Shown here in pieces: positions 15,072 through 55,506 of a DNA stretch of 64,000 nucleotides (position 1 is the first letter of the stretch; the number at the start of each line of letters is the position of its first letter). The position numbers and the translations under genes are program-made. This stretch comes from Streptomyces agglomeratus (GTDB taxonomy: Bacteria > Actinomycetota > Actinomycetes > Streptomycetales > Streptomycetaceae), in assembly GCF_001746415.1 (NCBI RefSeq), contig NZ_MEHJ01000001.1, forward strand, positions 1,427,001 through 1,491,000. Direction: 5' to 3'. The notes below the pieces were generated by a model. The model was not told the origin of the DNA. It saw only the letters and a program-made list of their open reading frames with translations, and did not search any database.

Positions 15072-15085
15072 TGAAAGCGCTCTCA
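15072..15085. promoter_or_regulatory. LacI-type operator before regulator gene
   Basis: TGAAAGCGCTCTCA is a near-perfect palindrome of the AGCGCT-centred LacI/CebR class. It lies 82 bp before the TTG start of the LacI-family gene and matches the sites before the GH81 glucanase, suggesting autoregulation. Confidence 0.65.
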
Positions 15086-15153
15086 CGCGGTCGGAGCGGC
15101 AGATATCCTCCCCCCAGCACCCCTCTCCGCCGACCCGCCGAGGAGCACCCGCC

Positions 15154-16182
15154 TTGCCCGGACAGCCCGCTGGCTACCGCCCCACTCTGGAAGCCGTCGC
15201 CGCCCGCGCCGGAGTCTCGCGGGCCACCGCCTCCCGTGTCGTCAACGGGGGTGCGGGCGTCCGGCAGCCCCTGGCCGACAAGGTGCGGGAGGCCGTCGAG
15301 GCGCTGGGATACGTCCCGAATCACGCGGCCAGGTCATTGGTGACCCGGCAGAGCGGCGCGGTGGCCGTGATCATCGCCGAGCCCGAGTTCAGGATCTTCT
15401 CGGACCCCTTCTTCGAGCAGCAGGTACGCGGCATCAGCAGGGAACTGACAGCGAACGACTCGCAGTTGGTCCTGTTGTGGGTGGAAGGCACCGGCGACTA
15501 CGACCGCATCGCCCGCTACCTCGGCGGCGGCCACGTCGACGGCGCGCTCGCCTTCTCGCTGCACGCCGACGACGGTCTGCCCGCCCTCATCGGCCGCGCC
15601 AAGGTACCGACCGTCTTCGGCGGCCGGCCCGGCTCCGGCGCCGCTGCGGTCCCGTACGTCGACTGCGACAACCGGGGCGGCGCCCGCAGCGCCGTACACC
15701 ACCTCGTCGGCCTGGGCCGCCGGCGCGTCGCGCACATAGCGGGCCCCCGCGACCAGACCTCCGCCACCGACCGCGCCGACGGATACCGCGACGTACTGTT
15801 CGACGCCGATCCCGCGCTCACCGCACAGGGCGACTTCACCGTGGACAGCGGTGCGCGGGCGATGGCGGAGCTGCTGGACCGCAGACCGGATCTGGACGCC
15901 GTCTTCGCCGCGAACGACCTGATGGCGGCGGGTGCGCTGCGGGTCCTGCGGGAGCGCGGCCGACGGGTGCCGCAGGACGTCGCGGTCGTCGGGTTCGACG
16001 ACGTGGCGGGTGTCGCCGAGGCAACCGATCCCGCGCTGACCACCGTCCGTCAGGACATCGAGGGGATGGGCCGGCTGATGGTCAGGCTGCTGATGCGGGT
16101 CCTGGGCGACGGCGGAGGGGAAGGGGCCGCGCCCGCCTCGGTCGTCATGCCGACGGAACTGGTGCGGCGGGCCTCGGCCTGA
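15154..16182 (+). CDS. LacI family transcriptional regulator
   Basis: A 342-aa LacI-family regulator. N-terminal helix-turn-helix at residues 10-35 (TLEAVAARAGVSRATASRVV), hinge helix near 50-60 (PNHAARSLVTRQS), then a periplasmic-binding-protein-like effector domain (65-335) with VFAANDLMAAGALRVL and VVGFDDVAGV. The TTG start follows AGGAG by 8 bp; the in-frame ATG upstream has no binding site and would read through the operator. It converges on the GH81 glucanase gene, and matching palindromes stand before both genes, so it probably represses the glucanase and itself. The inducer is likely a beta-glucan oligosaccharide, by inference only. Confidence 0.9.
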   Translation: MPGQPAGYRPTLEAVAARAGVSRATASRVVNGGAGVRQPLADKVREAVEALGYVPNHAARSLVTRQSGAVAVIIAEPEFRIFSDPFFEQQVRGISRELTANDSQLVLLWVEGTGDYDRIARYLGGGHVDGALAFSLHADDGLPALIGRAKVPTVFGGRPGSGAAAVPYVDCDNRGGARSAVHHLVGLGRRRVAHIAGPRDQTSATDRADGYRDVLFDADPALTAQGDFTVDSGARAMAELLDRRPDLDAVFAANDLMAAGALRVLRERGRRVPQDVAVVGFDDVAGVAEATDPALTTVRQDIEGMGRLMVRLLMRVLGDGGGEGAAPASVVMPTELVRRASA

Positions 16183-16247
16183 GCGGCCGGGCCCGCCGCG
16201 GTGGGGGGCGGTGCCGTGGGGGTGCGCTGCGGTCGGGTGCGCTGCGG

Positions 16248-19025
16248 CTACTGGAAGGGAATCACCAGCACCGAATCGCCCGTGCCGGTACGGAGCTTCG
16301 CCGTGCCGTTGCCGATGGCGCTCCACACTTCGAGGCGTACGGTGCCGCCCTTGAGGTCGCCGAGTGTGCCCGTCGCCGACTTGAGGCCGCGTGCCTGGGT
16401 GTACTCCTCCCAGCCCGCCACCGGATCGGTCGCGAAGTACTGGTAGGTCTCCGTCCGGTCGTACGTGCCGTCGCCGGTCAGGTCGTAACTGACCCGGGCC
16501 TGCTGGCCCAGGCCGACCGCCGTGCCCGCGTCGACCTGGAGCCGGAAGGCCGTCGGCGTACCGGACTTGAGCGTGCCGTTGACCCCCTTGGCGGTGTACG
16601 TCAGCGGCTGGTGCGGGGTGCCGTCGTGGTTGGCGCCGCCCGCCGAGGCGATGGTGTCGGTGGCGGCGGTGGTTCCGGTGGCCGTGGTGAGGGTGCCGCC
16701 GGTGCGCAGCTGGAAGGTGTTCCCGGTGGGCGGGTCGGGGTCGGGGTCCGGGTCGGTGCCTCCGGTGCCGGTGCCGGTCGCGGCCGAGCGGGCCGGGACG
16801 GTCAGTTTCGCCCCGTCGGAGAAGGTGACCGTACGGGCGGTGGAGGTGTGGTTGTGGGCGGCGTACGTCCGTACCGTTCCCTTGGTGAAGACGGCGGACG
16901 TCGGGATGTCGCCGCTGATCGTCGCGTCGGGGGCGCCGAGCGTGTCGAGGGTGCTGATCCAGTGGTAGGTGTGCGCCTTCGACTCGCCCTGCTCGGGGGT
17001 GTAGCCCGCGTGGCCCGCGTCCCACTTGGCCTTGGCGGCGCCCGGGTCGGCCAGTGACTGGAACTCCCAGAGGATGTCGCGCCATTCGACGGCCGGTCCC
17101 CCGTTCTCGCGTTCCATCTCGGCGAGGTTGCGCCGGATGGCGGCCTTCTCGCCGCCCAGGTGGAGTGAACCGCCGGTCACCGGGAGGACGTTGATGCCGT
17201 GGATCTCCTCCGGGTTGGCCGTCCACCAGGTGGCGTACGCCCCGCCGCTCCCCCACACCATGCCGACCGTGTCATGGCCGAAGGAGGACGGGAAGACCTG
17301 CTCGTCGGCGTCGAACCAGTACTGCGCGATCGCCTCCGACTCGGTGGTCAGGAGGTACGTGCCGAGGTCGCGCAGGGCCGTGTCACCGGTCGCCGCGCCC
17401 CACAGGACGAGTCCGGCGCTGAGGTTGGTGGACTCCGACGACGACTCCTGGTTGTTGCCGGCCGCGAAGCCCTGGTGGCCGGAGGCCCAGCTGTGGCCCG
17501 CATACACGTCGAAGCCGCGCAGGAAGGGGAAGGCGGTGTCGGTGCGGCTGGGGTTGGCGGCGTCCCGTACGAGCGTCTTGACCATGCCGCCCCACGCGGA
17601 ATCGGCGGCCCAAGCCGGGTCGTACTGGGCGACGATCGCGGCGGCGTAGACGTAGTAGCTGTAGTGGAAGTGGTGGTCGTTCAGCTCGGTGTCGCTGCCG
17701 TACGACGCCGGGTAGCCGGTCAGGGTCTTCCAGGTCCTGTCGTACGAGAACTCGTTGGCTCCGCCGGCCGTGAACCAGTCCTGGAGACGGCCCTTCATCA
17801 GGCCGAGCAGCTTGTCGCGTACGGCGGTCTCCCCGATCTGGTCGGCGACGGGCACGAGCTGGGCGAGGCGGCCCAGCGCCTTGCCCGTCCAGTAGGTGTC
17901 GGTGGCGCCGGAGAAGGGGTCGGCGGCGTTCGCGGCCTCGTTGAGGTAGCCACGGAGCCGCGCCTTGTCGACGCCGCTCGACTGCGGCAGCGCGGGCAGC
18001 ACGCCGGAGGCCCGCTGGCTGGTGGTGAAGGAGGCGCCCTCGCGGACCTTCATCGTGCCGCGCGGCGAGACGTAGGTGTACGGGGTGAGCGGGTCGGAGG
18101 TGTGCAGCCACTGGTGGCGGTAGAGGGCCTGGAGCGTGCCGGTCTCGCTGCCCTCCTTCGCCTCGGTGGTGAGGGTGTACGTCGCCTTCACGGTGCCGCC
18201 GGTGGTGTTCCAGCTCGCCTTCGAGCCCGTCACGAAGCTGTAGGCGTACTTCTTGTACGTCGCGAGGGCGTCGGTGGAGGGGAGCACGGCGAGCGAGAAG
18301 TAGTCCTTGGCGCCCAGACCCGCGCTGAGGGTGGAGCCGGCGATGTTCCAGTCGCTGCCGGTCGGTGCGAAGAGGGCGTAGTGGTGGCCGGCGACGGTGA
18401 TGCCGAGGACGTTGCCCTGGTCGGAGAAGACGGTGGGCGCGGCGGCGGTGGTGATCTGGGCGCCGGCGCCCGAGCCCTTGGCGTACACGAAGGGCATGCC
18501 GTGGCCGATGGTGGTGCGCAGGGTGCGGGCGCCGTCGGACCAGTAGGGCGTGACGGTCCAGTCGGACCAGTCGTCGGCCTTGGTGTCGGGCGAGTTCAGG
18601 CCGGTCAGGCCGAGCGTGAGGTCGCGCTTGTGGGCGTACTCGTACTGGCGGCCGTCCCCGACGACGGCGGGAGTCGTCGGGTAGCCGACCTCCAGGCCGG
18701 CGGCGGTGGACTGGTAGGTGAGCGGGTGGCCGTACATCGGTGTGGAGTGCGGGTTGTCGCCGTACCGCTGGAAGGCGAGGGAGGACCACCAGTCGTTGGT
18801 GGGGAGCGGCTTGTCCTTCGCGGCGGGGGTGAGCTTGGGGGTGACGGGTGTGCCGGTGTTGGTGGTGGGGCCGGAGGTTCCCGCGGGGCGTACGTCGGAG
18901 TAACTGCCCGCCCCTACGGGGACGGTGGCGGCGGCGGCCGGGGAGGCGGCAGACCCGAGGCCGAGGGCGGTCAGGGCGGAGACGAGGACCAGCGCGGACA
19001 CGGTTCTGAAGGGAGGAGCTGACAT
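16248..19025 (-). CDS. Secreted GH81 endo-beta-1,3-glucanase with C-terminal binding domain
   Basis: A 925-aa secreted enzyme. Signal peptide residues 1-34 ending AAAATV. The GH81 catalytic region (about 40-720) shows the family blocks NDWWSSLAFQ, DTELNDHHFHYSYYVYAA (catalytic Asp, about residue 445) and AAGNNQESSSESTN (catalytic Glu region, about 525). A TGTGGTDPDPDPDP linker (about 760) leads to a C-terminal domain of about 150 residues that looks like a CBM56 beta-1,3-glucan-binding module. The enzyme breaks fungal wall or storage laminarin-type glucan. Start at ATG 19025 is set by GAGGTG six bases upstream. Promoter and two LacI-type operators lie upstream. Confidence 0.9.
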   Translation of the reverse strand: MSAPPFRTVSALVLVSALTALGLGSAASPAAAATVPVGAGSYSDVRPAGTSGPTTNTGTPVTPKLTPAAKDKPLPTNDWWSSLAFQRYGDNPHSTPMYGHPLTYQSTAAGLEVGYPTTPAVVGDGRQYEYAHKRDLTLGLTGLNSPDTKADDWSDWTVTPYWSDGARTLRTTIGHGMPFVYAKGSGAGAQITTAAAPTVFSDQGNVLGITVAGHHYALFAPTGSDWNIAGSTLSAGLGAKDYFSLAVLPSTDALATYKKYAYSFVTGSKASWNTTGGTVKATYTLTTEAKEGSETGTLQALYRHQWLHTSDPLTPYTYVSPRGTMKVREGASFTTSQRASGVLPALPQSSGVDKARLRGYLNEAANAADPFSGATDTYWTGKALGRLAQLVPVADQIGETAVRDKLLGLMKGRLQDWFTAGGANEFSYDRTWKTLTGYPASYGSDTELNDHHFHYSYYVYAAAIVAQYDPAWAADSAWGGMVKTLVRDAANPSRTDTAFPFLRGFDVYAGHSWASGHQGFAAGNNQESSSESTNLSAGLVLWGAATGDTALRDLGTYLLTTESEAIAQYWFDADEQVFPSSFGHDTVGMVWGSGGAYATWWTANPEEIHGINVLPVTGGSLHLGGEKAAIRRNLAEMERENGGPAVEWRDILWEFQSLADPGAAKAKWDAGHAGYTPEQGESKAHTYHWISTLDTLGAPDATISGDIPTSAVFTKGTVRTYAAHNHTSTARTVTFSDGAKLTVPARSAATGTGTGGTDPDPDPDPPTGNTFQLRTGGTLTTATGTTAATDTIASAGGANHDGTPHQPLTYTAKGVNGTLKSGTPTAFRLQVDAGTAVGLGQQARVSYDLTGDGTYDRTETYQYFATDPVAGWEEYTQARGLKSATGTLGDLKGGTVRLEVWSAIGNGTAKLRTGTGDSVLVIPFQ

Positions 19026-19059
19026 GGACGGCACCTCTGGGTGGTGGGGGAAGGGCGTC

Positions 19060-19073
19060 CGAGAGCGCTCTCA
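19060..19073. promoter_or_regulatory. LacI-type operator O1 of GH81 gene
   Basis: GAGAGCGCTCTC is a perfect 12-bp palindrome (19061-19072) just downstream of the predicted transcription start and about 35 bp before the glucanase ATG, a position expected to block transcription. Confidence 0.75.
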
Positions 19074-19083
19074 GATAGCAGGG

Positions 19084-19113
19084 AACGTAAAACTCCTGAA
19101 ACAGAAGTGTCAA
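19084..19113 (-). promoter_or_regulatory. Predicted GH81 promoter
   Basis: On the minus strand a consensus -35 TTGACA (19108-19113) and a -10 TACGTT (19084-19089) are separated by 18 bp. Transcription would start near 19077, immediately before operator O1. Confidence 0.55.
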
Positions 19114-19125
19114 TACATGTGACAC
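19107..19125. promoter_or_regulatory. GTGTCA-N7-TGACAC dyad over the -35 box
   Basis: Perfect 6-bp arms with a 7-nt spacer overlap the predicted -35 element of the GH81 promoter. This could be the site of a second regulator. Confidence 0.4.
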
Positions 19126-19212
19126 AGACGGCAGTTGAGGGCGTCGCAAACCCCGGAGCGTTCAAGTGTTTACGGATGAGGGCATGCGGCGGCATGCTCG
19201 GAGCAGGGTTGC

Positions 19213-19226
19213 AGGGAGCGCTCTCA
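19213..19226. promoter_or_regulatory. LacI-type operator O2 (upstream, in oxygenase stop)
   Basis: AGGGAGCGCTCTCA matches 12 of 14 positions of O1 and lies 153 bp centre-to-centre upstream of it, overlapping the stop codon of the MpaB-like gene. The pairing resembles auxiliary LacI operators that act by looping. Confidence 0.6.
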
Positions 19227-54387: not shown

Positions 54388-55506
54388 TTACGCCGTCGAA
54401 CCGACCCCGGCGTCCGCCGCGTTCCTGGGTGGCGGAACGGGCTCCGGCGGCTTCGTCTCCTCCTCCGGAGCCGCCCGCGCCGTGCGGACCAGCCGCGACG
54501 CGGCGAGCCAGAAGGTGGTCGGCAGGAACACCAGGTCACCGACGATCGTGATGGCCGAGAACATCGGCAGCGCCATCAGCAGGCCGATGCCGATGTGCGT
54601 GCTGAGCATGATGACGAGGATGCAGTACTTGAGCCGCCGGTTGAACACCAGCGCCGGGAACAGCATCTGCGAGAAGACGGTGACGTAGGCCATGAGGGCG
54701 GCGAAGGTGCCGTGACTCGCGACCCAGGCCGAGAGCTCGGGGAAGGTCGAGAAGTCGTCGTACATCATCGAGTAGTAGAGAGCCGTGCCGTTGCGCCACG
54801 ATTCGCCCTGGATCTTGTACATGGCGGCGGAGGCGTAGATCACCATGACCTGGAGCGCGATCATCGCCATGCCGCCGTTGTGCAGGACGGTGACCAGGCG
54901 GCGGCGGAGTTCCTCCGTCTCCTCGCCCCAGAAGACGAACCGCGACCCGGCTGCCTTCTTCCCCTCCTTCGCCCTGCGGGCGCGGCGGCGGGCGTCGAGC
55001 GACCAGTGGCGGCCCGAGGCGATGAAGAGCAGGAAGTTGGCGAACAGCAGGCTCAGCAGCGCCCAGCCGCTGTTGGCCATCGACCCTCGGATGTAGAACG
55101 CCACCACGAGGAACCAGAAGAGCACGGTCACCGCGCGGGTGCGCCAGCCGAGCATCAGCAGCGCGCTGGCGACGACGGCCAGCGCGTACCAGGCCCAGAA
55201 GACGAGAGCGCTGTCGGTGACGAGGAGCGAGTACCACCAGGAGAACGCGCCGTCCAGGCCGCGTGCCTCCATGGTCCGCTCGAAGAGGTCGGCCGTGAAC
55301 GGGGAGCCCGGCCCCCACAGACGGTCGGCGCGTACCGATTCGCGGAGCAGGTGGATCAGGTACAGGCCGCCGAGGCCGATACGGATCGCCGCCGCGCTGT
55401 AGGGCGCGAGCGGCTGGAGGGTCAGCTTCCGGGCGGTGTCCCGGACCTGGCGGCCGAGGCCACCGGCGGACTCCAGCCCCAGGGAGAGTGCTGCGCGTAC
55501 GGTCAT
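54388..55506 (-). CDS. HTTM domain membrane protein (VKOR/gamma-carboxylase-like)
   Basis: A 372-aa integral membrane protein with the HTTM (vitamin K-dependent carboxylase-like) fold. Markers: PYSAAAIRIGLGGLYLIHLLRE, FWAWYALAVVASALLMLGWRTR, AMYKIQGESWRNGTALYYSM (conserved HTTM block) and the late helix pair. About nine transmembrane helices. It shares four bases (ATGA) with the DUF5819 gene upstream, so translation is coupled. Function unknown; bacterial HTTM proteins are often encoded next to DUF5819. Confidence 0.85.
   Translation of the reverse strand: MTVRAALSLGLESAGGLGRQVRDTARKLTLQPLAPYSAAAIRIGLGGLYLIHLLRESVRADRLWGPGSPFTADLFERTMEARGLDGAFSWWYSLLVTDSALVFWAWYALAVVASALLMLGWRTRAVTVLFWFLVVAFYIRGSMANSGWALLSLLFANFLLFIASGRHWSLDARRRARRAKEGKKAAGSRFVFWGEETEELRRRLVTVLHNGGMAMIALQVMVIYASAAMYKIQGESWRNGTALYYSMMYDDFSTFPELSAWVASHGTFAALMAYVTVFSQMLFPALVFNRRLKYCILVIMLSTHIGIGLLMALPMFSAITIVGDLVFLPTTFWLAASRLVRTARAAPEEETKPPEPVPPPRNAADAGVGSTA

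Follow-up and report, generated by a model that had tools for sequence, protein, structure and literature searches.

Three palindromic sites in a locus of the soil bacterium Streptomyces agglomeratus are very probably docking sites of a sugar-sensing repressor for enzymes that digest β-1,3-glucan, a sugar of fungal walls. Comparing this locus with its relatives, we arrive at a reading to which we give a probability of roughly 87%: the LacI-family protein encoded beside the sites would repress, through TGAGAGCGCTCTCA-type operators, a Streptomyces regulon for the use of β-1,3-glucan, and one of the three sites would stem from an importer operon that has since been lost. According to this reading, LacI would bind TGAGAGCGCTCTCA-type operators a short way upstream of the LacI gene itself and of the genes for GH81, GH64 and a secreted S1 protease, would block transcription while bound, and would be released when a short β-1,3-gluco-oligosaccharide (laminaribiose-like) enters the cell. 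Family knowledge and the content of the regulon together would predict such binding and repression; that the effector is a β-1,3-gluco-oligosaccharide we infer from regulon content only.

The sites and genes of the locus

In the window, by which we mean the whole 64,000-nucleotide stretch of DNA that was analyzed, the predicted operator O1 (15072..15085, TGAAAGCGCTCTCA) begins 82 bp upstream of the TTG start of the LacI gene at 15154. The predicted operator O2 (19060..19073, CGAGAGCGCTCTCA) lies 35 bp upstream of the ATG of the GH81 gene at 19025 on the minus strand, and the third predicted operator, O3 (19213..19226, AGGGAGCGCTCTCA), follows exactly 153 bp past O2. All three are found in the sequence at the positions given by the original prediction. 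The same prediction had put O3 inside the end of the neighboring oxygenase gene, which is right for the stop codon that the site overlaps (19224-19226) and wrong for its remaining 11 bases, which lie past the gene.

Chance occurrence was weighed first. The hexamer AGCGCT on its own occurs 20 times in the window against 19.9 expected, and the 14-mer at up to three mismatches occurs four times against 3.4 expected, which by count is no enrichment. The three best of these four matches are O1, O2 and O3 (with 1, 1 and 2 mismatches to the consensus, respectively), and the fourth, at 55203, carries three. As the window counts are at background, we do not use them as evidence, and the case must rest on the whole genome and on conservation.

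The LacI gene (15154..16182, plus strand) encodes a protein of 342 aa with matches to PF00356 (48.1 bits, cut-off 27) and PF13377 (122.4 bits, cut-off 26.5). An N-terminal LacI HTH and a periplasmic-binding-protein-like sugar-binding domain place it in the LacI/GalR family, and the sites have, as sequence, the form of LacI/GalR operators: palindromes with a central CG close before the regulated genes. The GH81-family gene (16248..19025, minus strand) encodes 925 aa, and its sole Pfam match is to the C-terminal domain model PF17652 (Glyco_hydro81C; residues 372-682, E 2.9e-62, 211 bits). This assigns the protein to GH81 by domain; its role as an endo-β-1,3-glucanase is putative, and secretion was judged by eye from the N-terminus.

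A consensus promoter scan called no promoter in this region, the GH81 -10 included, and the promoter-like elements described here were all read by eye. On the minus strand, a -35-like TTGACA (19108..19113) stands 18 nt from a -10-like TACGTT (19084..19089), which is found as AACGTAAAAC in all 16 aligned sequences. O2 sits just downstream of these elements, and it is at GH81 only, from these elements, that the placement of an operator relative to a promoter was read.

The operator word across genomes

A whole-genome motif search had been asked for beforehand in the original prediction. In the 9.13 Mb genome, TGAGAGCGCTCTCA matches 20 places at up to two mismatches versus 2 for the backward pattern, and only five places carry zero or one mismatch, all of them at LacI, GH81, GH64 or S1 protease genes: O1, O2, two sites at a GH64 β-1,3-glucanase gene and one at an S1 protease gene. 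The GH64 sites (C1:2527238 and 2527391; together C1:2527238-2527404, L017:9239-9405) are, like O2 and O3, 153 bp apart, and the second one already lies in the open frame, near its beginning; in a relative (L205), another GH64 type has paired sites 184 bp apart. The S1 protease site (C1:624431; L016:8432-9640) is perfect. The gene behind it appears frame-broken in the assembly: its open frame does not start until the prodomain, and alignment with an intact relative falls into two pieces; intact genes exist in relatives. None of nine weak two-mismatch places of the same genome, taken as centered pieces, precedes an expected regulon gene. Separately, GGAGAGCGCTCTCC occurs before a short GH3-like frame at C1:1137326 (L018:7327), beside a cluster recognized by eye (L018:6979-12863) with GH16, NPP1-like and GH30-like genes and a LacI gene.

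To follow the site through relatives, we collected ortholog loci by a protein scan with LacI, keeping the best 80 of 549 (70-90% identical). A site at up to two mismatches is present in all 41 loci that bear GH81, and in 39 of these it stands within 260 bp before LacI. Loci with the transporter only have a site in 8 of 8 cases, before LacI in 6. Where neither GH81 nor transporter was seen, 15 of 31 loci have a site and 11 have it before LacI, leaving 20 with none there; some of the 80 loci end at contig ends, so this class and the class with GH81 only are inflated. Among loci without GH81, two (L100:6679-6917 and L108:6672-6917) carry four and five operator copies, respectively, in a row before LacI, about 55-60 bp apart with one gap of 114 bp in L100.

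For the 295 genomes of the genus that were searched, we scored a LacI ortholog as present at E <= 1e-110 and as absent if the top match did not reach 1e-95 or there was no match at all; none had an intermediate value. The exact 14-mer occurs in 250 of 256 genomes with the ortholog (missing in 6) versus 5 of 39 without a close ortholog (Fisher 4e-33, a value that ignores shared ancestry), and the backward-pattern control matches in 1 genome of the 295. Together with the sites before LacI at the GH81 loci, this co-occurrence strongly supports, at the level of sequence, a LacI-glucanase circuit with autoregulation, and so bears out the earlier proposal of one LacI regulator that would control both its own gene and the glucanase.

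The circuit appears to extend well beyond one glucanase. Of 14 genomes in which LacI adjoins neither GH81 nor the transporter, 13 hold sites elsewhere; the remaining one (G307) has no site at up to one mismatch anywhere. From these 14 and from 13 genomes with the full arrangement (27 other genomes in total), we sampled 34 site loci, which are not all the sites of these genomes. Thirty-three lie at an S1 protease (13), a GH64 (12), GH81 with the transporter (6) or a GH16 (2), each 17-157 bp from the projected start of a GH64, GH16, GH81, SBP or S1-protease gene pointing away from it, and one (L170) lies at none of the expected genes. The recurrence of the S1 protease at 13 of the 34 suggests a wall-lysis role. 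GH81 thus keeps the place that the original prediction gave it, while the single-gene circuit becomes a candidate regulon with GH64, GH16 and S1 protease as further members.

O3, the absent importer operon and the spacing of operator pairs

The history of O3 is seen best in those relatives that keep a transporter, which is found in 33 of the 80 ortholog loci. A sugar ABC-transporter/GH1 operon runs divergently from GH81 in 25 of the 41 GH81 loci. It encodes a solute-binding protein and two permeases, followed by a GH1 β-glucosidase in those loci whose sequence is long enough to show it. In these 25 loci, the far palindrome of the pair stands before the operon, beginning 51-121 bp before the projected start of the binding protein. 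S. griseus (L084) is a species with the full arrangement. In L200, the nearest operon-bearing relative found, and in L201, the gene order is M1-LacI-GH81/SBP-PermF-PermG-GH1-MPAB-EEP; in the window it is M1-LacI-GH81-MPAB-EEP. Together with seven operon-less relatives, the window falls into a single clade (support 100/97). No operon was found in this clade, nor a close copy elsewhere in the window's own genome, where the best SBP matches are 48-49% identical as against 75-94% among orthologs. Between the GH81 promoter and O3, the window retains elements of what looks like the former divergent transporter promoter on the plus strand: a -10-like CATGCT (19193..19198) and a decayed -35-like TTTACG (19169..19174), the latter reading TTTACGG in the window and TTGACGG in the other seven of the eight clade members.

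Given the lack of a close operon copy and the conserved gene order, the simplest account of O3 is that of an operator left from a divergent operon since lost, and it probably served the ABC-transporter/GH1 operon that is now absent. In the ancestor, the GH81 promoter and that of an importer operon, coding for a substrate-binding protein, two permeases and a GH1 β-glucosidase, would have stood back to back, one operator belonging to each and the two lying about 152 bp apart. The window's clade has no such operon, and the simplest cause would be a deletion that left a promoter remnant and O3 beside GH81; loss here rather than gain elsewhere is suggested by the gene order that relatives share, by the remnant promoter elements and by the tree. 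The original prediction had read O3 as part of a looping layout for GH81; its origin appears to be a different one.

The same deletion bears on the gene next door. The MPAB/Lcp-type oxygenase (PF09995; 19224..20093, minus strand) has its counterpart on the far side of GH1 in relatives retaining the transporter, so it is probably a neighbor of GH81 by deletion, and we rejected it as a regulon member. We likewise rejected O3 as part of an MPAB promoter, since the MPAB gene ends there. Elsewhere in the genome, a paralogous LacI-transporter-GH1 set (C1:7297369-7303518, L202:5370-11519; 46-71% identical, GH1 71%) is a candidate β-glucoside importer that may do related work; around C1:7298 kb it has no 14-mer at up to two mismatches.

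Whether O3 still does anything is a separate matter, on which several readings compete. That the site has no function today and is just decaying since the operon was lost is a real though minority possibility: the operon is absent from the clade, the former -35 has decayed in the window and the window's O3 carries two mismatches. Against this, an alignment of the eight clade members shows no change in O2 and changes at 3 of the 14 positions of O3 (11 invariant), in a neighborhood that has changed heavily: variable columns number 31 out of 45 in the spacer and 28 out of 36 near the old -10 (p 4e-4). The conservation of O3 amid such a spacer argues for some present role.

One such role would be that of an auxiliary loop operator, kept after the loss of the transporter, with the repressor bound at O2 and O3 folding the 153 bp between them. 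In the E. coli lac operon, a repressor of the LacI fold acts through more than one palindromic operator near one promoter, with looping of the DNA. Besides the conservation of O3 and the equal spacing of the two GH64 sites, the spacing of operator pairs in relatives speaks for this reading. We searched the 295 genomes for pairs with exact GAGCGCTCTC at both ends, a search that misses weaker sites, and sorted the pairs into types by eye from the first 80 bases. The 40 pairs of the GH81 type, with other types excluded, fall into clusters at 151-154 bp (27 pairs: 151, 1; 152, 7; 153, 17; 154, 2) and 163-165 bp (10 pairs: 163, 1; 164, 8; 165, 1), with two more at 172 bp and one at 174 bp; none has any other spacing within 90-213 bp, and control pair searches returned 0. 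Pairs of about 108 bp (21 of the 295 genomes) were kept apart even though they share an AACGTA element with the GH81 type; the two loci inspected, L203 and L204, belong to another LacI locus. These two (spacing 108) and L206 (198 bp) each have a further LacI gene close to a pair of GGAGAGCGCTCTCC/AGAGAGCGCTCTCT-like sites, and a gene that is DUF1996-like by eye. A further site pair, 152 bp apart, lies near the end of locus L060 (L060:14742-14907), where GH81 was not found in the stored stretch.

Read on the LacI tree, seven separate spacing changes (+10, +19.5, +54, -41, +19, +11.5 and +11.5) lie near whole helical turns of 10.5 bp (p 0.002, or 0.015 after a scan of periods). The value is 0.009 (0.05 with the scan) if L058 is counted as +13 against its sister L201, 0.035 without L099 and L114, and 0.00015 (0.001 with the scan) if two changes from genomes outside the tree are added to the first set; L129 (spacing 291, GH81 divergent from LacI) was omitted from the main test and gives 0.006 when included. 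Because the test was devised after the data had been seen, the shift of operator-pair spacing by whole helical turns is suggestive only; the events are also few and the result weaker under some of these choices.

The protein itself argues against the classic loop. Residues 11-339 of LacI align to 5-326 of the 360-residue E. coli LacI, and the protein ends where this alignment stops; the C-terminal segment by which the tetrameric, looping E. coli type is recognized, which we take to lie beyond residue 326, is absent from its 342 aa. LacI is presumably a dimer, and any remaining role of O3 is putative. The system also differs from E. coli lac in that the second operator serves a divergent promoter in relatives. 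Moreover, the window's O3 has its two mismatches, three relatives (L067, L083, L106) have a single site at GH81, and conservation extends to the relic -35 and to some of the -10-like element, so that O3 may persist as a promoter component. Looping by a repressor at O2 and O3 is possible; as the reason why O3 was kept, we consider it rather unlikely.

A remnant promoter that is still active and regulated through O3 would explain why TTGACGG persists in seven of the eight clade members along with GCAT.C of the -10-like element and O3 itself, and might yield an antisense transcript over MPAB or read-through into EEP. We think this unlikely, as the window's own -35 reads TTTACGG and EEP, the next plus-strand gene seen, begins about 1.1 kb from the remnant. 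Also improbable, in our estimate, is the broader proposal that a Streptomyces LacI family without tetramerisation segment uses operator pairs fixed on one helix face for fungal-wall-lysis genes, and that one clade's operator outlived its importer promoter to be kept as an auxiliary of the glucanase.

Related systems and meaning for Streptomyces

We return to the main reading, LacI as repressor of a β-1,3-glucan-utilisation regulon, and to its nearest known relatives. Among solved structures, the closest in sequence is 5ysz, a regulator of the LacI family, which we take to be Thermobifida CelR. In the passages available to us, the CebR/CelR systems of Streptomyces and Thermobifida (PMC4898821, PMC3377646) resemble the present one in belonging to the same broad LacI group, in a 14-bp palindrome with AGCGCT at its center, and in having ABC-transporter and β-glucosidase partner genes; they differ in their main targets, which are cellulose genes, and in the box, given for Streptomyces CebR as TGGGAGCGCTCCCA (PMC4898821), one base per half-site off. 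We therefore rejected the CebR box as the identity of O1-O3, which are TGAGAGCGCTCTCA-like. In the genome studied here, TGGGAGCGCTCCCA occurs at four two-mismatch places, and two of these have a LacI paralog next to them that shares 49-50% identity with the present LacI; as the boxes are so close in sequence, cross-binding of our sites by CebR-like paralogs is possible. That such a paralog, rather than the adjacent LacI, is the protein that binds O1-O3 is very improbable, even with 19 LacI-domain matches in the genome and a CebR-type box so near in sequence (PMC4898821), given that the exact 14-mer follows the adjacent LacI's ortholog genome by genome and that a site precedes that LacI's own gene in nearly all GH81 loci.

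The palindrome itself was predicted earlier, in Catenulispora acidiphila; the Streptomyces circuit is of the same kind, with an unusual history for one of its operators. In the passages seen of that work (Anderson et al. 2012, PMC3377646), TGAGAGCGCTCTCA is predicted twice ahead of an operon for an ABC transporter; further predicted sites precede a LacI gene next to a GH5 gene, as well as two putative endo-1,3-β-glucanases of family GH16. The palindromes are identical and the gene sets agree, TGAGAGCGCTCTCA-type sites standing before LacI and glucanases in our genome and the transporter being present in the 33 ortholog loci. The Catenulispora system differs in belonging to another genus, in being a prediction only, and in having the transporter that the window's clade lacks; GH81, GH64 and S1 protease are not named in its passages on this regulon (PMC3377646). 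In a search of the open PMC literature, the 14-mer was found together with Streptomyces and LacI only in PMC3377646, and a 12-base core also in a paper on sugarcane leaf scald, in the part seen. Streptomyces, laminari-, glucan and CebR are not among the words of PMC4052901, and GAGCGCTC and GH81 are absent from the text of PMC12772271.

The main reading would tie one regulator to one exact operator word throughout the genus. This word could be used to list the genes that Streptomyces probably induces on β-1,3-glucan (fungal walls, callose, laminarin), and it brings in a secreted protease whose connection with them would not be apparent from annotation by itself. The clade without the transporter would further offer a natural experiment on the fate of an operator once the gene it served is gone, and may also bear on how glucan is sensed without that importer.
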